38,038 nucleotides of DNA, taken from assembly GCF_027859075.1 (NCBI RefSeq), contig NZ_JAQIBL010000297.1:1-38038 (forward strand). Direction: 5' to 3'. The position numbers and the translations under genes are program-made. A model generated the notes under the pieces. That model was not told the DNA's origin and did no database searches. It saw only the letters and a program-made list of their open reading frames with translations. Shown here one piece after another: positions 1-10,702 of this stretch (position 1 is its first letter; the number at the start of each line of letters is the position of its first letter). Source of the DNA: Oceanispirochaeta sp. GTDB lineage: Bacteria; Spirochaetota; Spirochaetia; DSM-2461.

Positions 1-857
1 GTGAATCTGCCGCCATTCATTGTTCCGCCGATGATCACCGCGGCAATGGCATCCAGCTCGATCAGGAAACCTGTGCTGTAGGGGCTTGTGCTGGACTCTC
101 CCGAAACATGGATCAGTCCGGCGATCCCCGCACAGAGGGAAGAATAAACATAGGTGGCTACGATGACGGTGGTGGTTCTTATCCCCACATAGCGGCTGGC
201 TGTTCTATTCTCTCCAATGGCTTCTATAAATATGCCAATGGCTGTTTTTTTGGTCAGCACCATTGTTATGACAAAGATGACAAAACAGACCCAGACGGGT
301 ATGGGCAGTCCCATAAAATAGCCGTTACCGATATGAGTAAAGGGGACACCATAATAGGTGGGTGTCTGGCCCTGTACCATGAGCACGGCCAGGCCCCGGG
401 CGGTATACATCATGATCAGGGTGGCAATGATGGGCTGTACCTTTACCACCGCCACCAGAAGTCCATTGATGACCCCCAACACCATGCAGATGAGCAAGGG
501 GATCAGGATGATAAGGATCAGGGGAGGCTGGGGATCTACGACGGGTAAACCTGCCAGGTAACCGGGTCGGATGATCAGAGCGGCCATTCCTCCGGATACT
601 GCCATGACCGAACCGACGGAGAGATCAATCCCCCCTGTGGCATAGACCAGGGTCATTCCTACGGCAAGGATACAAACCCTGGCTCCATTATTGAGAATGT
701 TGATCAGATTCCCCCGCAGTTTCCCCCCTTCCTGGAGGGAAACTTCAAAAAATTCGGGGGAAATAAGTAAATTGAGCAGCAATACTGCAAACAAGCCCAT
801 AAAGGCCCAGAGTAATCGCTTTGTTAATGGGTCTTTGAATTGTATTAGATTATTCAT
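1..857 (-). CDS. ytfT: sugar ABC transporter permease, YtfT/RbsC type (3' end outside window)
   Basis: Inner-membrane permease of a monosaccharide ABC importer (BPD_transp_2 family). I read it directly from the minus strand: ATG at 857, open to the left edge, so 285 residues are present and the C-terminus is missing. It begins MNNLIQFKDPLTKRLLW, has several hydrophobic segments, and carries the family motifs VYATGGIDLSVGSV (about residues 70-83) and VIIGGTMNGGRF near the cut end. It starts 25 bases after the ATPase gene and has a GAGG ribosome-binding site about 10 bases upstream. In E. coli the ytfQRT-yjfF operon has a second permease next; here that would lie beyond the left edge. Substrate is inferred from the binding protein. 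Confidence 0.88.
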   Translation of the reverse strand, partial: MNNLIQFKDPLTKRLLWAFMGLFAVLLLNLLISPEFFEVSLQEGGKLRGNLINILNNGARVCILAVGMTLVYATGGIDLSVGSVMAVSGGMAALIIRPGYLAGLPVVDPQPPLILIILIPLLICMVLGVINGLLVAVVKVQPIIATLIMMYTARGLAVLMVQGQTPTYYGVPFTHIGNGYFMGLPIPVWVCFVIFVITMVLTKKTAIGIFIEAIGENRTASRYVGIRTTTVIVATYVYSSLCAGIAGLIHVSGESSTSPYSTGFLIELDAIAAVIIGGTMNGGRF

Positions 858-2411: not shown

Positions 2412-3368
2412 TCAGAATCCCATAGTAGGGTGATTTTTGTAATTATCCTGATCGTACAGAGAGTCGGGTGTAATGATGTACTTATCTACAGGTTCACCCT
2501 TTGTCGCGGCAATCAGACTCTTGAAACCGAGGGGTCCCAGGAGAGGACTGCACTCAACTGTTGCGTTCATATCGCCTCTTCCAATGGCCTCAAAAGCAGC
2601 CTTTATGGCATCAATAGAGATAATCAGAGCATCTTTACCAGGTGTCAAACCAGCGGATTTCATGGCTTCAACCGCACCGAGAGCCATTCCGTCGTTATGA
2701 GCATACACGACGTCAAAATCAACACCCGCGGCCAACCATGCTTCAACAACCTGACGTCCCTTGTCCTGGCTCCATTCACCTGTCTTGGATTCAACAACTT
2801 CGATACCGGGGTAGGTGTCGATGACTTCCATGAAACCCGAGTTTCTCAGAATGGCGGGGTCTGCGGCAGGGTCTCCGAAGAGCTCAACTACTTTTCCTTT
2901 ACCATCGAGTTTTTTGGCAACCCATTTAGCTGCTTCACGGCCTTCAAAGGCAAAGTCGGAAGAAATCTGGGTAACCCAGAGAGATTCGGGGGCATCCACA
3001 CCTCTGTCTAGAAGAACAACAGGGATACCTGCATTTTTGGCTTCCTGCAGTACTTCATCCCAACCGCTTCTTGTCTGAGGAGCGAGGAGTATGCCGTCTA
3101 CTTTCTGTGTGATAAAGTCTCTGATGGCCGCAACCTGACCTGCCTGGTCAGTGACGGACAGTTTCAATACAATGCCTAGTCTTTCAGCTTCCTGCTGAAC
3201 TGAGTTGGTCTCTGTTGTTCTCCAGGGACTGTCCTCTTTGATCTGAGCAAACCCGACAGTCATTTTTTTGCTGCCGCCGTCGTCTGTGGCTCCCTTTGCA
3301 AATGCAGAAGGGAGTACCATGAGAAGAACCATGAGAATCATAGTGAAGGTTACAAGTCTTTTTTTCAT
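2412..3368 (-). CDS. ytfQ: periplasmic galactofuranose-type sugar-binding protein, YtfQ-like
   Basis: Periplasmic substrate-binding protein that delivers sugar to the ABC importer. I choose the ATG at 3368, not the longer frame from 3416, because AAAGGAG lies 6 bases upstream, a signal peptide starts there (MKKRLVTFTMILMVLLMVLPSAFAKG), and the longer start would fall inside the sigma-54 promoter. The result is 318 residues, the same as E. coli YtfQ. YtfQ-like stretches recalled from the family are VGFAQIKEDSPWRTTETN, VVLLDRGVD, VYAHNDGMALGA, GLTPGKDALI and NATVECSPLLGP. It is the first gene of the leftward operon and probably the most strongly made product. Galactofuranose is the best guess by similarity; another pentose or hexose is possible. 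Confidence 0.92.
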   Translation of the reverse strand: MKKRLVTFTMILMVLLMVLPSAFAKGATDDGGSKKMTVGFAQIKEDSPWRTTETNSVQQEAERLGIVLKLSVTDQAGQVAAIRDFITQKVDGILLAPQTRSGWDEVLQEAKNAGIPVVLLDRGVDAPESLWVTQISSDFAFEGREAAKWVAKKLDGKGKVVELFGDPAADPAILRNSGFMEVIDTYPGIEVVESKTGEWSQDKGRQVVEAWLAAGVDFDVVYAHNDGMALGAVEAMKSAGLTPGKDALIISIDAIKAAFEAIGRGDMNATVECSPLLGPLGFKSLIAATKGEPVDKYIITPDSLYDQDNYKNHPTMGF

Positions 3369-3399
3369 AAAAGCTCCTTTGTTTGTTTGATATTGTATT

Positions 3400-3416
3400 T
3401 GCAATTCCTGTGCCAA
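3400..3416 (-). promoter_or_regulatory. sigma-54 (-24/-12) promoter for the sugar ABC operon
   Basis: On the minus strand the sequence is TTGGCACAGGAATTGCA. It matches the sigma-54 consensus TGGCAC-N5-TTGCA at every conserved base, with the correct GG-to-GC spacing. Transcription would start near 3390, leaving a leader of about 20 bases that contains AAAGGAG before the YtfQ-like start codon. A sigma-54 enhancer-binding regulator is encoded divergently, which supports the call. Confidence 0.88.
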
Positions 3417-3427
3417 TCGGGGATTCT

Positions 3428-3441
3428 GGTAAATTCTTACC
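3428..3441. promoter_or_regulatory. short palindrome next to the sigma-54 promoter
   Basis: GGTAA-ATTC-TTACC is a perfect inverted repeat (5-bp arms, 4-bp spacer) about 12 bp upstream of the -24 element. It shares the GTAA/TTAC core with the larger operator-like repeats but has a different spacing. It could be a site for another regulator or a partial site; function is unproven. Confidence 0.35.
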
Positions 3442-3525
3442 GTATTATCTTCATTCCATGAAACAAATTAGAATTTATTTTTTAAAATAATTGATTCTTG
3501 GATTCTATCTGCCATCCATAAATGT

Positions 3526-3599
3526 GTGCAATCTTTACACAAGCCTCCTCCCTTGTGTGTAACAGTTACACACAAGAGGGACGGGTGCAACTATTACTT
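3526..3599. promoter_or_regulatory. three operator-like repeats (candidate enhancer for the sigma-54 regulator)
   Basis: Three 15-bp copies of GTGYAAY-N-NTTAC(AC) lie at 3526-3540 (GTGCAATCTTTACAC), 3557-3571 (GTGTAACAGTTACAC) and 3585-3599 (GTGCAACTATTACTT). The middle copy is a perfect palindrome that extends outward to 12-bp arms over 3552-3576. The centres are 31 and 28 bp apart, close to three helical turns, so the sites face roughly the same side. They sit about 115-185 bp upstream of the -24/-12 promoter, a normal distance for enhancer sites, with an AT-rich stretch (about 3463-3492) between. The likely binder is the Fis-type HTH of the adjacent response regulator. Confidence 0.7.
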
Positions 3600-3626
3600 G
3601 ACATTTCGGCCTTTGAGTGCAAAAAT
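3598..3626 (+). promoter_or_regulatory. candidate sigma-70-type promoter for the response regulator gene
   Basis: TTGACA at 3598-3603 is followed after 17 bp by AAAAAT at 3621-3626, a good -35 with a weak -10, ending 19 bases before the chosen start codon. The third operator-like repeat abuts the -35, so the regulator could control its own gene. No strong ribosome-binding site is visible. Confidence 0.4.
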
Positions 3627-3645: not shown

Positions 3646-4944
3646 ATGAATCAAATAATCCTTGTAATCGATGACAAAGAAAAACTCTGCAAGAGTCTGG
3701 AGCTGAACTTCAGTAAGTTGGGATATGAGTACCATTATCGTCTAAATGGATCTACCGCTCTCCACTTTCTGGATGCCTGTGTACCGGATCTCATCCTCCT
3801 CGATCTGGCTTTGGGAGAGGAAGACGGCCTTGATATTCTGACCGTTATTAAACAGAAGCAACCCCTGGTTCCGGTTATCATGATCACCGGGTATGGGTCC
3901 ATTGATACTGCTGTGAAGGCCATGAAAATCGGGGCTTCTGATTACATTCAGAAGCCTCTCAATTTTAACAGCCTATATAAGATTGTAGAAAATACCCTAA
4001 AGAAGAATAGCAGTCCCATGGAACTGAGACCTCAGGGGATTATAACTAAAAGTGAAGTCATGATGGACTTATATGAAAGGGCTAAAAAACTGGCAGATAC
4101 CAATTTCCCGGTACTGATTACAGGGGAGAGCGGTACCGGGAAGGAGCGGATTGCCCATTTAATCCATGATTCTTCACCCCGCAGCGGGATTGAAATGCAG
4201 TGTATCAATTGCGCTGCCTTTCCTGAAAACCTTCTGGACAACGAACTCTTCGGTCATGAGAAAGGGGCTTACACGGGAGCGGATCAGCAGTTTAAGGGAA
4301 TCTTTGAACGGGCCGATAAGAGCACCCTCTTTATGGATGAAATCGGGGACATGTCTCTCCAGACTCAAGCCAAGATTCTGCGGACCCTCCAGAACAATGA
4401 AATCAGAAGAATCGGCGGTAATAACACCATCAAGATTGATGTCCGCTTTATTGGGGCGACCAACAAAAACTTATCTGAACTAATGATCCAGAAGCGATTC
4501 CGGGAGGACTTGTACTACAGACTGGGTACAGCCGTATTGAATATTCCCCCCTTAAGGGAGAGAGTCGAAGAGATTGCCTCCCTGGCGGAGTACTTTTTAA
4601 AGGAACAGTTTGAACACAAGGATTATTCCTTTAGTAAGGGGGCCATGGAAAAACTACGCCATTACGACTGGCCTGGAAATATCCGGGAATTGAGGAATGC
4701 CGTCCACTACGCCGGTGCCATGGTGACCGGGCAGGTCATCAATGAAGAAGATATACCCCGGGATCTACATGGTTCCTCCAGCGGGGACAACCCGGCGGTC
4801 TCTCTGGAAGAATATGAAAAATCACTCATAATGAAGGCCTTGAAGCAGGCTTTGAACAACAAAAGTAAAGCTGCAGAAATCCTCAATATCAGCAGGAAAA
4901 CCCTTTATAATAAACTGGATAAGTATGGATTGTCAGGTGAATGA
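3646..4944 (+). CDS. sigma-54-dependent response regulator (NtrC/AtoC type)
   Basis: Enhancer-binding activator for RNA polymerase with sigma-54. At 432 residues it has the normal three-part layout. The receiver (1-120) has acidic D9/D10, phospho-acceptor D53, T81 and K103. The AAA+ domain (about 130-365) has Walker A GESGTGKE (160-167), the sigma-54 contact loop GAYTGA (207-212, the accepted Tyr variant of GAFTGA) and Walker B LFMDEIGD (228-235). A Fis-type helix-turn-helix (405-430) ends the protein. A longer frame begins with GTG at 3526, but that start lies in the operator repeats and adds 40 residues with no receiver similarity, so ATG 3646 is preferred. Its end overlaps the kinase gene by 20 bases. 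It very probably drives the divergent sugar importer operon. Confidence 0.93.
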   Translation: MNQIILVIDDKEKLCKSLELNFSKLGYEYHYRLNGSTALHFLDACVPDLILLDLALGEEDGLDILTVIKQKQPLVPVIMITGYGSIDTAVKAMKIGASDYIQKPLNFNSLYKIVENTLKKNSSPMELRPQGIITKSEVMMDLYERAKKLADTNFPVLITGESGTGKERIAHLIHDSSPRSGIEMQCINCAAFPENLLDNELFGHEKGAYTGADQQFKGIFERADKSTLFMDEIGDMSLQTQAKILRTLQNNEIRRIGGNNTIKIDVRFIGATNKNLSELMIQKRFREDLYYRLGTAVLNIPPLRERVEEIASLAEYFLKEQFEHKDYSFSKGAMEKLRHYDWPGNIRELRNAVHYAGAMVTGQVINEEDIPRDLHGSSSGDNPAVSLEEYEKSLIMKALKQALNNKSKAAEILNISRKTLYNKLDKYGLSGE

Positions 4945-6736
4945 AAAACCTCTTTTGGAGCTCCGGGGCATTTCATTCTTCAAGGAGAAACTTCAGGTTT
5001 TCAATGATCTGAACTTTAAGCTCTATTCCGGAGAAATTCATGCCCTGGTGGGAGACCGGGGGACAGGTAAATCTTCTTTGGGTTTGATCATGTCTTTGAA
5101 CGAGCAGCCTGAAGACGGATCTGTCCTCTGGAAGGGCAGAAGGATGCTTTATCACTACCTGAAGCCCATGAAAAACCCGGGAATCCAGATTGTCTATCAG
5201 AATGATGGCTTGATTGACTATTTCACAGTGGCTGAGAATATGTTTCTGCCTGAGAATATATTCCGTCCTTTTCCCTTTTCCAGCCGCAAAAAACTGATTC
5301 TTCTGGCGGATGCTTTCATCAGGGAGCTGGGATTTGACATTGATCCCCTTCGAACCTTTCAAGACCTTTCCATGTCTGAGAGGGTCGTTGTCAATATACT
5401 CCGCAGTCTCTATCGTAAGCCCGAGTTGCTGATTCTGGATGAGGCTTTGGAGAAGCTGACTGGAAAAGACCTGGATCGGGTCATCTTTCTTCTAAAAAAG
5501 CATGCCGAAGAAGGGATGGCGGTTTTCTGCATCAGCCATAAAATTGATGATATTTATAATCTGGCCAGAAAAATCACGATCATCCGGGATGGGAAAATCC
5601 TACTCACCGATTCAAGCAAAAACATCGACCGCCTGAATCTGATCAAGATGTGTTACACCCAGGTGACCAGGAATAAAGAGTCCGAAGATATCAGCAAAGA
5701 GTTCTATCAGCTCCTGCGTTACAATGAAGCCATCCTGAAAAACCTGCCCATCTCACTGATCGTTACGGATGACCGGAATCATATCAAAATGATCAACGAC
5801 CAGGGGCAGAGTTTTTTCAATGTGACCTCCGAGCAATATCTGAATCAGCCTATGTCGAGTATCGTTACCGATGATGAAGCCCTGGATCAGATACAGCGAT
5901 GTTTCAATAAGAGGGAGGAGTCTTCCATATTTCATCAGACCATCAGCTCCATCATTGCAAATATCAAGATTTACCCGATTTTTGACGGTACTTTTCCCAT
6001 CGGAAATATTACGATTATCGAGGATATTACCGACCAGGAGAAGATGAGGCAGAGGGTTAATCTTTCGGAAAATCTGGCCTCACTGGGGCTTTTAGCTGCT
6101 GGAGTCGCCCATGAGATCAATAATCCTCTTGAAATCATCTACAATTACCTGAATTTTCTTCGAATGAATCCTGATCACGGCCAGACTTTGACGGCTGTGA
6201 ATCATCTGGAAGAGGAAATTGACGGGATTAAGCTGATTGTCTCTAATCTGGTCTCTTTTTCCGGAGACCGGCAGCACCTATGTGAATCTTTTGATATCAA
6301 CCTGCTGCTGAGTCAGACTCTGACCCTTTTAAGGCCTGCCGCAAAAGACAAAAATATCATCTGCTCCATTTCATCTACCGAGACAGAGTTATTCCTCTAT
6401 GCCAATAAGACCGAAATCAGGCAGGTGTTGCTCAATCTTATAAAAAACAGCTTTGAAGTTCTGATTTTCGGTGGGGCTATACATATCGAAACGGAAAGAC
6501 AGAAGGATAAAGCTGTCATGAGAATCCGGGATAACGGCCCCGGGGTCACTCCTGATATTGCCGAACAGGTCTTCCTCCCATTTTTCTCAACCAAAAAAAA
6601 TGAGGGGAATAACATGGGTCTTGGTTTGCCTATGAGTTATGGCATTGTAAAAAAGTATAACGGGGATCTGACATTCCGCAACTTAAATGACCATGGCTGT
6701 GAATTTATCATGACCCTGCCTAGAGAAGATCTTTAG
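4925..6736 (+). CDS. soluble sensor histidine kinase with N-terminal ABC-ATPase domain (ABC-PAS-HisKA-HATPase)
   Basis: Predicted cytoplasmic histidine kinase of 603 residues with no membrane segment. Residues 10-245 form an ABC-ATPase-like domain resembling the first half of RbsA/YtfR: Walker A GDRGTGKSS (43-51), Q-loop Q92, VAENMFLPEN, Walker B LLILDE (168-173) and H-loop H205. The signature is degenerate (LSMSER, 148-153) and DEPT is DEAL. A PAS-like domain (about 262-370) follows, then an H-box with H396 (VAHEINNP), N-box NLIKN (504-508), DNGPG (536-540) and GLGLP (565-569). It overlaps the regulator gene by 20 bases, so the two form a cognate pair. The start could instead be GTG 4937. 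The ABC part may sense nucleotide state or touch the importer; that is inference. Confidence 0.9.
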   Translation: MDCQVNEKPLLELRGISFFKEKLQVFNDLNFKLYSGEIHALVGDRGTGKSSLGLIMSLNEQPEDGSVLWKGRRMLYHYLKPMKNPGIQIVYQNDGLIDYFTVAENMFLPENIFRPFPFSSRKKLILLADAFIRELGFDIDPLRTFQDLSMSERVVVNILRSLYRKPELLILDEALEKLTGKDLDRVIFLLKKHAEEGMAVFCISHKIDDIYNLARKITIIRDGKILLTDSSKNIDRLNLIKMCYTQVTRNKESEDISKEFYQLLRYNEAILKNLPISLIVTDDRNHIKMINDQGQSFFNVTSEQYLNQPMSSIVTDDEALDQIQRCFNKREESSIFHQTISSIIANIKIYPIFDGTFPIGNITIIEDITDQEKMRQRVNLSENLASLGLLAAGVAHEINNPLEIIYNYLNFLRMNPDHGQTLTAVNHLEEEIDGIKLIVSNLVSFSGDRQHLCESFDINLLLSQTLTLLRPAAKDKNIICSISSTETELFLYANKTEIRQVLLNLIKNSFEVLIFGGAIHIETERQKDKAVMRIRDNGPGVTPDIAEQVFLPFFSTKKNEGNNMGLGLPMSYGIVKKYNGDLTFRNLNDHGCEFIMTLPREDL

Positions 6737-7967
6737 GCTTCTTCATTTTTTTAGGTTTTTTCGGCTTGAAGGGTCTCAGGTCCAGCTGGGATTCGGGAAG
6801 TGCTTTCTCCGGCTCAAAACCCTCCACAATCCGGCGGTCCAGAACCTGTTTCGTAAGCCGTTCGATATCTGCCAGTTTTTCAAAATCATCAAAGCAGACA
6901 AAGGAAATCGCCTCTCCTGTGGCCCCGGCTCTTCCGGTTCGTCCAATCCGGTGTATGTAGTCTTCCTTGAGATGAGGCAGATCAAAATTCACCACCAGAG
7001 GAAGCTGGTCAATGTCCAGACCCCGGGCTGCCAGATCTGTGGCGACCAGAATGGACAGCTTGTCGCTCTTGAATTCTGCCAGGGCCCTGCTCCGGGCTCC
7101 CTGGCTCTTGTTTCCATGAATTGTGGCCGTAGCTATCCCGGCCTTCAGCAGCTTTCGGCTCAAATGGTCGGCGCCGTTTTTTGTCTTGGTAAATATGAGG
7201 ATTTTATCCCAATGGTTGTCTCTTATCAGTTTTAACAGGAGAGATGATTTTTTTAACTTATCCACAGGGTAAATCCATTGCGTAACAGAATCGACGGTGA
7301 TTTCTTCGGGGTTGACGGAGATCTCGACGGGATGTGACACAAAGTCCTTGGCCAGAGCCCGGACTTCATCAGAAAAAGTGGCGGTGAACATCAGGGTCTG
7401 ACGCTTCGAAGGAATGAGAGCCTGAATTTCCCTGATCTCAGGGAGAAACCCCAGATTGAGCATCCGGTCGGCTTCATCCAGAATGAGGATCTCCAACTGC
7501 TGAAAATTTACGGTATTCTGCCTGTATAGATCCAGGAGGCGTCCGGGTGTGGCCACCAGGATATCCATCCCTTTGGTCAATCGGATCATCTGGGGATTGA
7601 TTTTCACTCCCCCGTATACCACTGTGGAGTGGAGGGGCATAAATCGGGAGTAGTTCGTCACACTTTCGTATACCTGTGCTGCCAGTTCCCTCGTGGGTGT
7701 CAGGATGAGAGCCCTGACATGATTCGGACGGACCTTGCTGCCTTTTGACAGATGATCCAGGATCGGGAGTGTATAGGCGGCGGTCTTGCCTGTTCCTGTC
7801 TGGGCCGCTGCCAGAACATCATGTCCCGCCATCACTGCCGGTATGGTTTGAATCTGAATGGGAGAGGGATCTTCATATTTCTGTCTTTCAATGGCTTTCA
7901 GCAGTGCCGGGGATAAACCAAAACCCGTAAATTTTTCTGATATTTTTTCACTCATGATATGTCTCAT
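6720..7967 (-). CDS. rhlE: DEAD-box ATP-dependent RNA helicase, RhlE-like
   Basis: RNA helicase that remodels RNA duplexes in cold adaptation, rRNA maturation or mRNA decay (family knowledge). It shows the Q-motif region FTGFGLSPALLKAI...PSPIQIQTIP, motif I AQTGTGKT (about 55-62), PTRELAAQ, ATPGRLLD, DEAD in LDEADRMLNLGF, motif III as TATF (usually SAT), ATDLAARGLDI and HRIGRTGR. A basic Lys/Pro-rich tail ends the 415 residues and may bind RNA. Two starts are possible: ATG 7967 (AGGAG, but only about 2 bases away) or ATG 7955, giving MSEKISEK. Its last 17 bases overlap the 3' end of the kinase gene tail to tail, so no space is left for separate terminators there. Confidence 0.92.
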   Translation of the reverse strand: MRHIMSEKISEKFTGFGLSPALLKAIERQKYEDPSPIQIQTIPAVMAGHDVLAAAQTGTGKTAAYTLPILDHLSKGSKVRPNHVRALILTPTRELAAQVYESVTNYSRFMPLHSTVVYGGVKINPQMIRLTKGMDILVATPGRLLDLYRQNTVNFQQLEILILDEADRMLNLGFLPEIREIQALIPSKRQTLMFTATFSDEVRALAKDFVSHPVEISVNPEEITVDSVTQWIYPVDKLKKSSLLLKLIRDNHWDKILIFTKTKNGADHLSRKLLKAGIATATIHGNKSQGARSRALAEFKSDKLSILVATDLAARGLDIDQLPLVVNFDLPHLKEDYIHRIGRTGRAGATGEAISFVCFDDFEKLADIERLTKQVLDRRIVEGFEPEKALPESQLDLRPFKPKKPKKMKKPKDLL

Positions 7968-8012
7968 CTCTCCTGGTCGACGGGGTAGAATTTTTTATCG
8001 CCTTTGTAAACG

Positions 8013-8034
8013 GGAAGTATAACAGGAAGTATAA
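8013..8034. repeat. tandem 10-bp repeat upstream of the helicase gene
   Basis: GGAAGTATAA occurs twice, at 8013-8022 and 8025-8034. On the minus strand each copy reads TTATACTTCC and so holds a TATACT -10-like hexamer, 12 bp apart. No good -35 is seen at the right distance, so this is only a candidate promoter or binding site for the helicase gene. Confidence 0.3.
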
Positions 8035-8038
8035 GTTA

Positions 8039-8794
8039 TTACTTAAGAGGATCACCCAGAAGTTTTGCCAGCACCGTGTGAGCAATCTGCAGACCAAAGA
8101 TGGCCGTGATGGTGGGCAGACTCCCCAGGACCTTCCTTGTCCTGCCCCGATCCAGCTCCTGATCATTCCTGCCTGCTGTCTCTTCATCTTCCGGCTCTCT
8201 GTACTCATAGTCCACGAGTTCGGTGGAATACAGGCAGGTAATTCCTTTGCCCACACCCCGACGGCGGAGTTTTTTTCTAATCTGCCTGGCCAGAGGACAG
8301 GTATGGGTTTTCATCAGGTCGCTTCTTTTAATTGAAAAAGGATCATAATGAAGAGCGGCCCCCATGGAGGAGACGATAGGGATTCCCTTCTTCCATGTGT
8401 ATTCCAGAAGGGACAGCTTTGCTGCCATGGAATCGATGGCATCTACCAGAATATCCGGCGACTTGTTGAAAATCTCTTCCATTGTATCGTCATGACCAAA
8501 GAACTTGAGGGTTGTCACACGGCAGGCGGGATTGATATCCAGAATCCTTTTGCGGGCCAGATCCACCTTACTCTCTCCAATGGTGGAATCCATGGCCAGG
8601 ATCTGCCGGTTAATATTTGTCAGATTCACAACATCAAAATCCACCAGGGTAAAGGCGCCGATGCCGCTCCGGGCCAGGGCTTCCAGGGCAAAGCCTCCAA
8701 CGGCTCCCATTCCGACGATACAGACCCGTATATCTGCCAGACTCTCTCTCTTCTCCTGCCCGATCAGGCGGTCAATGCGTAAAAACCGTTCCAT
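8039..8794 (-). CDS. tcdA: tRNA threonylcarbamoyladenosine dehydratase, TcdA (E1-like)
   Basis: E1/ThiF/MoeB-superfamily enzyme that, in the TcdA family, uses ATP to cyclise t6A37 to ct6A in tRNAs. The 251 residues match the family length. Visible features are the nucleotide-binding GMGAVGGFALEAL (about 28-40), LVDFDVVNLTNINRQ (50-64) where ATP is held, DAIDSMAAK, SSMGAALHYDP, and a C-terminal GSLPTITAIFGLQIAH helix typical of TcdA rather than MoeB or ThiF. The sequence between the paired parts is charged (YREPEDEETAGRNDQELDRGR). The ATG at 8794 lies inside the end of the upstream TatD-family gene (23-base overlap), so translation is probably coupled. A different E1-like activity cannot be excluded. 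Confidence 0.88.
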   Translation of the reverse strand: MERFLRIDRLIGQEKRESLADIRVCIVGMGAVGGFALEALARSGIGAFTLVDFDVVNLTNINRQILAMDSTIGESKVDLARKRILDINPACRVTTLKFFGHDDTMEEIFNKSPDILVDAIDSMAAKLSLLEYTWKKGIPIVSSMGAALHYDPFSIKRSDLMKTHTCPLARQIRKKLRRRGVGKGITCLYSTELVDYEYREPEDEETAGRNDQELDRGRTRKVLGSLPTITAIFGLQIAHTVLAKLLGDPLK

Positions 8795-9479
8795 TCTTCA
8801 TTATACTCCCGGCTAAAGCCTCTTTCTCAATTCCAAGGGCCCGGGCTACATTTTCATAGTGCCGGTTCAGCCTCTCAATATAGGATCTGTCTTCAGTTCC
8901 GGAAGAACCGGGCCAATCGGTTTCCAGAAGCAGCCTCTCCCGGGGGATTTTCCGGATCAATTCAGGGAATCCGGATTGCTGCCGGTCATCTCCCGGGCCG
9001 ATGGATATATACATTCCCAGGCGGATGCAGCGTTTTAATATCTCTTCAGATCCCCTGAACCCGTGAATCATAATGGGCGTGTCCGGCTTTTCACGGCTGA
9101 TAAAATCAGCCAGGGCTCCCGACGCCTGGACCTGATGCAGACAAAGGCTCCTGCCGTGTTTCCGGGCCAGGTCAAAGTGAGACTTCAAGACCCTTTCCTG
9201 CTCTCTCCGGGGGAAGGTCTTGTAATAGCGTTTATCCAGGCCGCACTCGCCAATTCCGGCTCCGGGATGCTTTCTCAGAATCATATCCAGTTTTTCAAGA
9301 TCCTTTTCCCAGCCTGGAGTCAGGTATTCCGGGAGGATTCCCAGGAAGGGTTTGATCCGGGTGTCCCGGAGCAAGACCTGCCAGTCAGACCTTGAGGCGG
9401 CGCAGGACAGATACAGCCCCCCCTCGGGGAGATCTGCAAAGGGTGCATGACTGCTGTGAAGATGGGCATCGCAGAGCAT
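8772..9479 (-). CDS. TatD-family metal-dependent hydrolase
   Basis: Amidohydrolase-like TIM-barrel protein of the TatD DNase family, expected to be a metal-dependent nuclease in DNA repair or RNA processing. It keeps the metal ligands: HxH in DAHLHS (residues 4-9), Glu in GIGECGLD, His in SLCLHQV, His in PIMIHGF, and Asp in LLLETDWPG. At 235 residues it is a little shorter than E. coli TatD (about 260) and has a compressed first third. It lies in a leftward run between the TauE/SafE gene (2-base gap) and tcdA (23-base overlap), so all three are likely co-transcribed. The family is clear; the particular subtype and substrate are not. Confidence 0.85.
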   Translation of the reverse strand: MLCDAHLHSSHAPFADLPEGGLYLSCAASRSDWQVLLRDTRIKPFLGILPEYLTPGWEKDLEKLDMILRKHPGAGIGECGLDKRYYKTFPRREQERVLKSHFDLARKHGRSLCLHQVQASGALADFISREKPDTPIMIHGFRGSEEILKRCIRLGMYISIGPGDDRQQSGFPELIRKIPRERLLLETDWPGSSGTEDRSYIERLNRHYENVARALGIEKEALAGSIMKNGTVFTH

Positions 9480-9481
9480 GA

Positions 9482-10249
9482 TCAGCCCAGGAATTCCTGA
9501 TAGATGAGTTTTGTTATGGTCAAAGCCACCATGCTGAGAAAGAAGATTCTGATGAATTTCGTTCCCTTGTTAATCACCATATGGCTGCCCAGCCAGGCTC
9601 CTCCAATCTGGCCCGAGGCCATGATCAGTCCAGGCAGAAAGAGGACATTGCCTCCCAGGATAAACAGAGTCAAAGAGACAATATTGCTCGTAAAATTCAT
9701 AATTTTGGTGTTGGCTGTGGCAGACTTCAGGTTAAAACCCATCAGGCTTACCAGAGCGATGGTCCAGAAGGAACCTGTACCTGGACCAAAAAAGCCATCA
9801 TAAAATCCCAGGGTCAGACCGGCGGTGGTATAAAAAACGCCGGCTTTGACCCGGGCGTGTCTGTCTGTCTTTCCCAGTTCGGGAGAGAATAAAGTATAGA
9901 AGAACACCCCCAGAAGGATAAAGGGGATGACTTTTTTGAGGGAATCCGCCGGGATAATCTGTATCAGACTGGTTCCTGTCAGAGCACCGATAAAGGTGAA
10001 AAAGACTCCCCTTATCAACTGGTCTTTGACTACCAGTCCTGAGCCGGCGTAGCGGATGGCCGCTGTACTGGAGCCGAAACTGGATTGGAGTTTATTGGTT
10101 CCCAGGGCAAGATGAGGAGGAATCCCGACGGCCAGAAGGGCTGGCAGGGTTATCAACCCTCCGCCCCCGGCGATTGAATCAACAAAGCCCGCTGTAATGG
10201 CTACAAAAAAGAGTATAAGTAGTTTCATCAGAGACGGTTCAAACATCAT
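9482..10249 (-). CDS. TauE/SafE (TSUP) family membrane transporter
   Basis: Integral membrane protein of the TauE/SafE/YfcA (formerly DUF81) family, proposed exporters of sulfite, sulfoacetate or related small anions. The 255 residues are very hydrophobic with about seven or eight helices. The two family repeats are visible: AGFVDSIAGGGGLITLPALL near the N-terminus and LGFYDGFFGPGTGSFWTIAL around residue 155. GTNKLQS and TANTKIMNFTSN are also typical. The start is ATG 10249 or 10246. It is the first gene of a leftward cluster with the TatD-family hydrolase and tcdA and is divergent from the small hydrophobic gene at 10439. No substrate can be assigned from this context. Confidence 0.87.
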   Translation of the reverse strand: MMFEPSLMKLLILFFVAITAGFVDSIAGGGGLITLPALLAVGIPPHLALGTNKLQSSFGSSTAAIRYAGSGLVVKDQLIRGVFFTFIGALTGTSLIQIIPADSLKKVIPFILLGVFFYTLFSPELGKTDRHARVKAGVFYTTAGLTLGFYDGFFGPGTGSFWTIALVSLMGFNLKSATANTKIMNFTSNIVSLTLFILGGNVLFLPGLIMASGQIGGAWLGSHMVINKGTKFIRIFFLSMVALTITKLIYQEFLG

Positions 10250-10387
10250 GAGTCAACAATATCCCAGTGAAGAAATGATGTATAGATATCTGGTGAATCA
10301 GGCCGAAAATCGGTGAGGAAGCCCATCCTGTTGACAATAGGCTTGTCCTTCAGCCTGAAAAATGGAGAATAAGGAAAGAAACAGAAA

Positions 10388-10403
10388 TTGGCACGCTTAT
10401 TGT
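10388..10403 (+). promoter_or_regulatory. sigma-54-like promoter before the small membrane protein gene
   Basis: TTGGCACGCTTATTGT matches the sigma-54 pattern TTGGCACG-N4-TTGC except that the -12 GC is GT. Transcription would start near 10415, giving a leader of about 25 bases that holds a GAGGTG ribosome-binding site. The spacing is correct and the gene it faces resembles a phage-shock protein, a class known for sigma-54 control. A GT at -12 lowers certainty. Confidence 0.55.
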
Positions 10404-10438
10404 TTTACTACTTGTGAGAATGAATGTGAGGTGAAGAA

Positions 10439-10702
10439 ATGATTGAATTGATGTTGTTAGCCTTTATAATAATATTTTCAGGAATCTTTGTTTTAAAGTT
10501 TCTGTTTTTTGTACTGGCCCTCTTGTTTTCCGGAGTCGGATTTTTCCTGAAGCTGGTACTGACTCTTGTGTTTTGTGTGTTGATTTTCCCCCTCGGACTG
10601 GCCCTGTTGGGGGTCCTTTTTTCAGGGGGAGGGCTGGTTTTCCTTTTGATTATTATGGGTCTGGGAGCCCTGATCAGTGAAAAAAAGGAACCTACTAAGT
10701 AA
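10439..10702 (+). CDS. small hydrophobic membrane protein, possibly PspG-like
   Basis: Protein of 87 residues that is almost entirely hydrophobic, with two or three predicted membrane helices and a short charged tail (SEKKEPTK). It begins MIELMLLAFIIIF, resembling the start and size of PspG, the small inner-membrane phage-shock protein (about 80 residues), but the rest is too low in complexity for a firm match. GAGGTG lies 6 bases before the ATG. A sigma-54-like promoter lies 36-51 bases upstream, as for psp genes in enterobacteria. No pspA, pspB, pspC or pspF is visible in the window. It is followed after 20 bases by an ABM-domain gene. It could equally be an unrelated small membrane protein. 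Confidence 0.6.
   Translation: MIELMLLAFIIIFSGIFVLKFLFFVLALLFSGVGFFLKLVLTLVFCVLIFPLGLALLGVLFSGGGLVFLLIIMGLGALISEKKEPTK

Follow-up and report, generated by a model that had tools for sequence, protein, structure and literature searches.

Gene organization of the locus

The analysed window, which is an entire contig of Oceanispirochaeta sp. of 38,038 nucleotides, starts within a sugar importer operon on the minus strand, from which genes for a response regulator and for a sensor kinase with a fused ABC-type ATPase domain diverge. The genes and the fused domain are as follows:

3..857, minus strand: CUT2-type permease (RbsC/YtfT-like; PF02653, 5e-39; YtfT model, 3e-69, under its cut-off), truncated by the contig end
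883..2382, minus strand: CUT2-type double ATPase (RbsA/YtfR-like; PF00005 twice; YtfR model, 2e-202, under its cut-off)
2412..3368, minus strand: periplasmic sugar-binding protein (Peripla_BP_4, YtfQ-like), first gene of the importer operon, with its ATG at 3368
3646..4944, plus strand: NtrC-family response regulator with receiver domain (D53), sigma-54 AAA+ domain with GAYTGA, and Fis-type HTH
4925..6736, plus strand: soluble fused sensor kinase of 603 amino acids, with ABC-type NBD (residues 8-244), linker helix (256-272), PAS, DHp (H396) and CA domains
4946..5656, plus strand: NBD1-like ABC ATPase domain of this kinase, with Walker A GDRGTGKS (43-50), Q92, Walker B D172/E173 and H205

A Peripla_BP_4 binding protein, an ATPase with tandem NBDs and a BPD_transp_2 permease identify the minus-strand genes as a CUT2 sugar importer. 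In the double ATPase, NBD1 has the Walker A lysine and a degenerate signature, and NBD2 has LSGGNQQ and a Walker A arginine. This residue pattern was established with 52 homologues, the ATPases of neighbouring importers: their NBD1 keeps the Walker A Lys, Q-loop Gln and H-loop His and has a poor signature, and their NBD2 carries LSGGNQQ in 100% of the cases, with the Walker A Lys replaced by Arg in 90% and the H-loop His by Ser. Although the galactofuranose importer YtfQRT-YjfF provides the best named models, the scores stay below the NCBIfam equivalog cut-offs (269/510, 673/850 and 234/535 bits, the last for the truncated permease), so that a substrate name derived from these models was rejected. 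An arabinofuranosidase gene adjoins the locus of one relative (L102), which only hints at furanose sugars. Since the operon is interrupted at base 1, the window shows neither its second permease nor whatever catabolic genes it may have; in another relative (L097) the operon goes on with a YjfF-like permease.

The regulator scores above the cut-offs for PF00072, PF00158 and PF02954, with Walker A at residue 160 and GAYTGA at residues 207-212, as in a sigma-54-dependent response regulator.

The control region

The region between the divergent genes holds the following elements:

3416-3400, minus strand: sigma-54 -24/-12 promoter TTGGCACAGGAATTGCA, matching the consensus and facing the binding-protein gene
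3526..3540, plus strand: enhancer-like dyad 1, GTGCAATCTTTACAC, with 13-bp core GTGCAATCTTTAC at 3526-3538
3557..3571, plus strand: enhancer-like dyad 2, GTGTAACAGTTACAC, a perfect dyad conserved in relatives, with 13-bp core GTGTAACAGTTAC at 3557-3569
3585..3599, plus strand: weaker enhancer-like dyad 3, GTGCAACTATTACTT, with 13-bp core GTGCAACTATTAC at 3585-3597
3598..3626, plus strand: sigma-70-like promoter of the regulator-kinase operon, TTGACA-17-AAAAAT with TG before the second hexamer (10/12 matches, so that a chance occurrence is possible)

Transcription from the -24/-12 element is predicted to start near 3389, upstream of the binding-protein ATG, and the position and direction of the element are conserved in relatives. 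The pattern TTGGCAY-N5-TTGCW has only two copies in the 4.36 Mb assembly, the other of which (L130) lies inside an open reading frame. The dyads are spaced by 31 and 28 bp, with their centres about 132, 163 and 191 bp from the -12 element, and dyad 2 is embedded in a 25-bp palindrome with 12-bp arms (CTTGTGTGTAACAGTTACACACAAG, 3552-3576). Counting the palindrome on both strands, the 13-bp repeat has four exact matches in the window against 0.01 expected, a number reached in none of 100 shuffles. The common core, GTGTAA-N3-TTACAC, is found in nine loci if up to one mismatch is allowed (the window, L097, L090, L066, L098, L107, L050, L114 and L119), with shuffle p values between 0 and 0.007 for each, and is usually followed by another GTGTGTAA half-site. 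In more distant paralogues the dyad is lost or altered, as expected if the DNA-binding domain has diverged. Elsewhere in the genome, GTGYAAYNNTTAC has four matches, which probably are coding since they fall inside open frames, the longest of 120-530 codons; for the same reason a large regulon defined by this motif was rejected and no distant target is claimed.

An earlier sequence-only reading of the window had proposed a perfect -24/-12 promoter directed towards the importer, a neighbouring activator with a GAYTGA loop and Fis-type HTH, and three repeats 28-31 bp apart, and all of these were recovered. It had named a genome lacking rpoN, or repeats not conserved in relatives that keep the gene pair, as findings that would speak against it; rpoN is present, and the dyads are conserved in close relatives.

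The dyads may also serve the regulator's own expression. In the window, dyad 3 touches the -35 hexamer of the sigma-70-like promoter, and in L098, L100, L102 and L107 a dyad, as judged by eye, overlaps the -10 of a TTGACA-like regulator promoter. This arrangement suggests autoregulation, which is likely to be negative because the dyads of several relatives overlap the regulator's own promoter.

The fused sensor kinase

The NBD, PAS, HisKA and HATPase_c regions of the kinase are encoded in a single uninterrupted frame. To judge from near-full-length homologues (about 26-62% identity) in class-level relatives, the fusion is no assembly accident. PF00005, HisKA and HATPase_c were found in 33/33 members of the family alignment (A3), in which H396, N504/N508 and D536/G538/G540 are invariant, as in a histidine kinase. 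A membrane helix is not evident in the kinase, the maximum Kyte-Doolittle mean over 19 residues being 1.5. In the AlphaFold model (mean pLDDT 78) the NBD and the kinase core are well formed and separate, with a pTM of 0.43 that makes their relative placement uncertain, and Foldseek retrieved PAS-kinase structures and ABC ATPases, each matching its own half of the protein.

The PF00005 match covers residues 26-175 and is nearest to the first NBD of AraG/YtfR/RbsA. Like that NBD1, the domain keeps the Walker A Lys (100%), the Q-loop (97-100%) and the Walker B Asp (100%) and has no LSGGQ. The H-loop His is kept in 97% of the subgroup to which the window belongs and is mostly lost in a distant subgroup, and the Asn of GENGAGKS is replaced by His in most members and by Arg in the window. 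The signature (LSMSE in the window) and the D-loop (EKLT in the window, EKLS or similar in the family) are degenerate. Because the Walker A and B motifs, Q-loop and H-loop are present without an LSGGQ signature and a normal D-loop, the domain should be regarded as ABC-derived, but not as a normal transport ATPase. From these residue patterns, we infer that the two NBDs of a kinase dimer would form no normal hydrolytic site; one of them might pair with the NBD2 of an importer ATPase.

The sequence-only reading had recognized a two-component pair with an ordinary kinase. The protein is a kinase indeed, but not an ordinary one, as the importer-type ABC ATPase domain at its N-terminus had been missed. 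Similarly, the parts of the circuit as described are present, but that account was incomplete: it left out the fusion, and the circuit belongs to a recurrent module rather than being a one-off.

Occurrence in other genomes

At least one copy of the fused kinase was found in 57 of 395 genomes and 36 of 133 genera when the class was sampled, and in 9 of 296 genomes over the whole phylum. Named records are mostly from Spirochaetes, with some labelled UASB270, Poribacteria, Desulfovibrio and others; mis-binning of contigs may explain a few of these. Copies also occur in records labelled Labilibaculum, Treponema denticola, Desulfovibrio and Bacteroidia (L096, L111, L114, L123), most of them with the whole module, and mis-binning or lateral transfer may account for these. 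The CUT2 complement of these bacteria is very large, with about 20-40 RbsA-type double ATPases in each of six genomes counted (G000, G002, G003, G030, G048, G050), the number for the window's own genome being 22. Given these numbers and the 57 of 395 genomes that carry the kinase, only a minority of the importers can have an NBD-kinase.

We collected 91 non-redundant pairs of a regulator and a fused kinase, in a first set of 61 and a second of 30. CUT2 importer genes lie near 83 of these (59/61 and 24/30, respectively); several of the remaining pairs are on truncated contigs, and others adjoin a glycyl-radical enzyme or arabinose catabolism genes. For the 47 divergent loci of the first set, sigma-54 sites were counted within 350 bp upstream of the regulator. 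A site pointing towards the importer was present in 26 loci when at most one mismatch was allowed and in 38 with at most two, as compared to 0 and 1 pointing towards the regulator, and to 0.4 and 0.8 expected from the density in the same DNA. In the second set the site points away from the regulator in 18 of 30 loci and towards it in none. Where the importer is co-directional and downstream, the site is usually shifted to the front of it, 30-75 bp before the importer in six loci (L059, L060, L062, L069, L075 and L123).

As a control, CUT2 importers without the kinase were taken from G000 and G002. No site with at most one mismatch was found on the same strand within 3.5 kb for 34 of these 36, some of the stretches being short as contigs end, and one of the two exceptions is served by its own NtrC-family regulator, a HAMP kinase and an extra binding protein. 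Across relatives, including loci with another gene order, the site thus goes with the importer, and it is almost entirely lacking among the control importers, which supports the sigma-54 control of the importer predicted by the sequence-only reading. On these comparisons, the importer is very probably activated via sigma-54 by the divergent NtrC-family regulator. The combination of NBD-kinase and sigma-54-controlled importer is a recurrent module and not a one-off.

At least two pairs have targets or neighbours other than an importer, so the module is not strictly tied to one. In L220 (1479-8479) the pair is accompanied by a perfect sigma-54 site towards genes for two zinc alcohol dehydrogenases, a glycyl-radical enzyme and a radical-SAM protein (probable activase), with no importer as the target of this site. 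In L245 (10653-15630) the pair is followed by a LacI-type regulator, an FGGY kinase and an L-arabinose isomerase.

Proposed mechanism and alternatives

The sequences themselves show how genes and domains are ordered, that the kinase is a fusion, that the sigma-54 site and the dyads are conserved, and which NBD motifs have been kept and which lost. The following mechanism is proposed. The kinase would take in its signal through the ABC ATPase domain at its N-terminus, which derives from NBD1 of a CUT2 ATPase, and this signal most likely is the state of the neighbouring importer. To this end the domain would dock on the cytoplasmic face of the permease, or pair with the LSGGNQQ-bearing second NBD of the importer ATPase, and the binding protein and permease would therefore act as the sugar receptor. 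The kinase would then phosphorylate D53 of the regulator, which would bind the intergenic GTGTAA-N3-TTACAC sites and remodel the sigma-54 polymerase at 3416-3400, turning the importer on. That the fused kinase and the regulator are phosphotransfer partners is almost certain, and entry of the signal through the NBD appears probable, whereas for physical docking of the NBD on the importer the chances are about equal either way. The explanation as a whole, a self-contained module for importer regulation in which the fused kinase reads the importer's state, is the one we favour, with some reserve. The importer itself may be what the cell uses to sense the sugar.

The distance correlation was r=0.90 between regulator and kinase and a modest r=0.36 between the kinase NBD and RbsA. 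For a docking test, kinase NBD residues 85-109, comprising the Q-loop and the segment expected to face the coupling helix of the permease, were compared with NBD1 of RbsA; since the search for solved structures gave no match to the importer ATPase at E <= 1e-40, the choice of contact residues followed what is generally known of ABC importers. In 43 loci the cognate NBD1 resembled this segment more than shuffled partners did (p=5e-5), a result that 14 unseen loci did not replicate (p=0.26); after pruning, the combined sets had p values of 0.05, 0.23 and 0.66. The residue matching is thus no more than suggestive of docking, and it is because of the positive outcome in the 43 loci and the non-significant one in the 14 fresh loci that we place docking at about even chances.

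Alternatively, the NBD could sense ATP/ADP or a cytoplasmic ligand by itself, making no contact with the importer, and the control would then be plain regulation of a gene neighbour. Retention of the ATP-binding motifs with loss of the catalytic and dimer motifs would suit such a sensor, as would the docking-surface covariation that failed to replicate and the pairs that control or adjoin non-importer genes. However, a general energy sensor has no need of a CUT2 partner, whereas this domain is an NBD1 of specifically CUT2 type, and most pairs lie by CUT2 genes, which makes this explanation unlikely. The PAS fold, sitting between NBD and DHp, could also be the true sensor. The NBD would then be only a scaffold or dimer clamp, or a competitor of RbsA that regulates transport activity instead of sensing; judging from the residue patterns, a domain of the NBD1 kind that lacks LSGGQ could take the place of NBD1 in the importer, leaving a dead ATPase. 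The PAS region, however, is among the least conserved parts of the kinase family, whereas hardly any variation is seen in the Walker A, Q-loop and Walker B motifs or at the NBD-PAS junction, and we consider a PAS sensor quite unlikely.

A different matter is whether the sigma-54 site and the repeats could be there by chance or belong to another regulator, with something else controlling the importer. Nine of the 47 divergent loci do lack a recognisable site. Nevertheless, the site is strongly conserved in direction and position, it follows the importer when the gene order differs and is lacking in control importers, and the dyad is conserved in nine loci, so that this possibility is very improbable.

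The reading of importer state by the fused kinase could be generalized to a class of NBD histidine kinases (NBD-HK), in which a catalytically disabled copy of an importer ATPase domain would plug into the cognate ABC importer and read its transport state. We put this general form at somewhat less than an even chance; if it holds, the importer would be the receptor for its own sigma-54-driven induction.

Comparison with known systems and significance

CbrB of Pseudomonas belongs to the NtrC/sigma-54 activator family. Its partner CbrA is an SLC5 transporter-histidine kinase 'transceptor' (PMC13022988, PMC7096432) and resembles the fused kinase in that a transport-related domain is joined to a histidine kinase with a PAS domain in between. 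The difference is that CbrA contains a whole membrane symporter, whereas the kinase described here has only a soluble ABC ATPase domain and no hydrophobic segment suggesting a membrane helix, the permease being a separate gene of the target operon. Ks-Amt5, an ammonium transporter domain fused to a histidine kinase, likewise has a transporter-derived domain as sensor, but this is a membrane Amt channel domain instead of an ABC ATPase, and a sigma-54/importer context is not described in the relevant part of the review (PMC8534201).

ABC transporters that act as sensors for a separate histidine kinase are known from BceS-BceAB and PstSCAB-PhoU-PhoR (PMC6978683, PMC8534201). In these systems transporter state is proposed to set kinase activity, as it would here, and the Bce regulator controls transporter genes, but kinase and ATPase are separate proteins and BceS has two membrane helices. 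The fused kinase departs from the BceS type, with its two membrane helices and no ATPase domain. To our knowledge, neither BceS nor PhoR carries an NBD.

The regulator shares with NtrC-type systems the receiver, the AAA+ domain with a GAFTGA-type loop, the Fis HTH and paired dyads upstream of a -24/-12 promoter. It differs in its dyad, GTGTAA-N3-TTACAC here as compared to the NtrC box TGCACCAnnnTGGTGCA (PMC8743547), and in its target, a CUT2 sugar importer. The terms 'ABC transporter' and 'ribose' occur nowhere in the text of a survey of sigma-54 enhancer-binding regulators (PMC3162934), and the sugar systems under sigma-54 regulation in the part consulted are PTS systems. No description of an ABC ATPase-histidine kinase fusion was found in the literature searched, which was openly licensed papers only and does not thereby prove novelty.

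The known links between transport and two-component signalling are whole transporters fused to kinases or complexes of separate ABC transporters and kinases. A kinase that has kept an importer ATPase domain in disabled form would add a third solution, soluble and genetically simple, and would permit a direct test of ABC importers as sugar receptors for gene control. For this lineage a rule emerges, in that most CUT2 importers have no sigma-54 site and those by an NBD-kinase usually have one. The same genus also offers a variant: in L200 of G002 (4948-10654), a CUT2 importer with a perfect sigma-54 site (5985-6001) is found with an NtrC-family regulator, a HAMP histidine kinase and an extra Peripla_BP_4 protein. 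This locus resembles the window in the apparent sigma-54/NtrC control of a CUT2 importer, but a membrane HAMP kinase beside the extra binding protein takes the place of the NBD-kinase.
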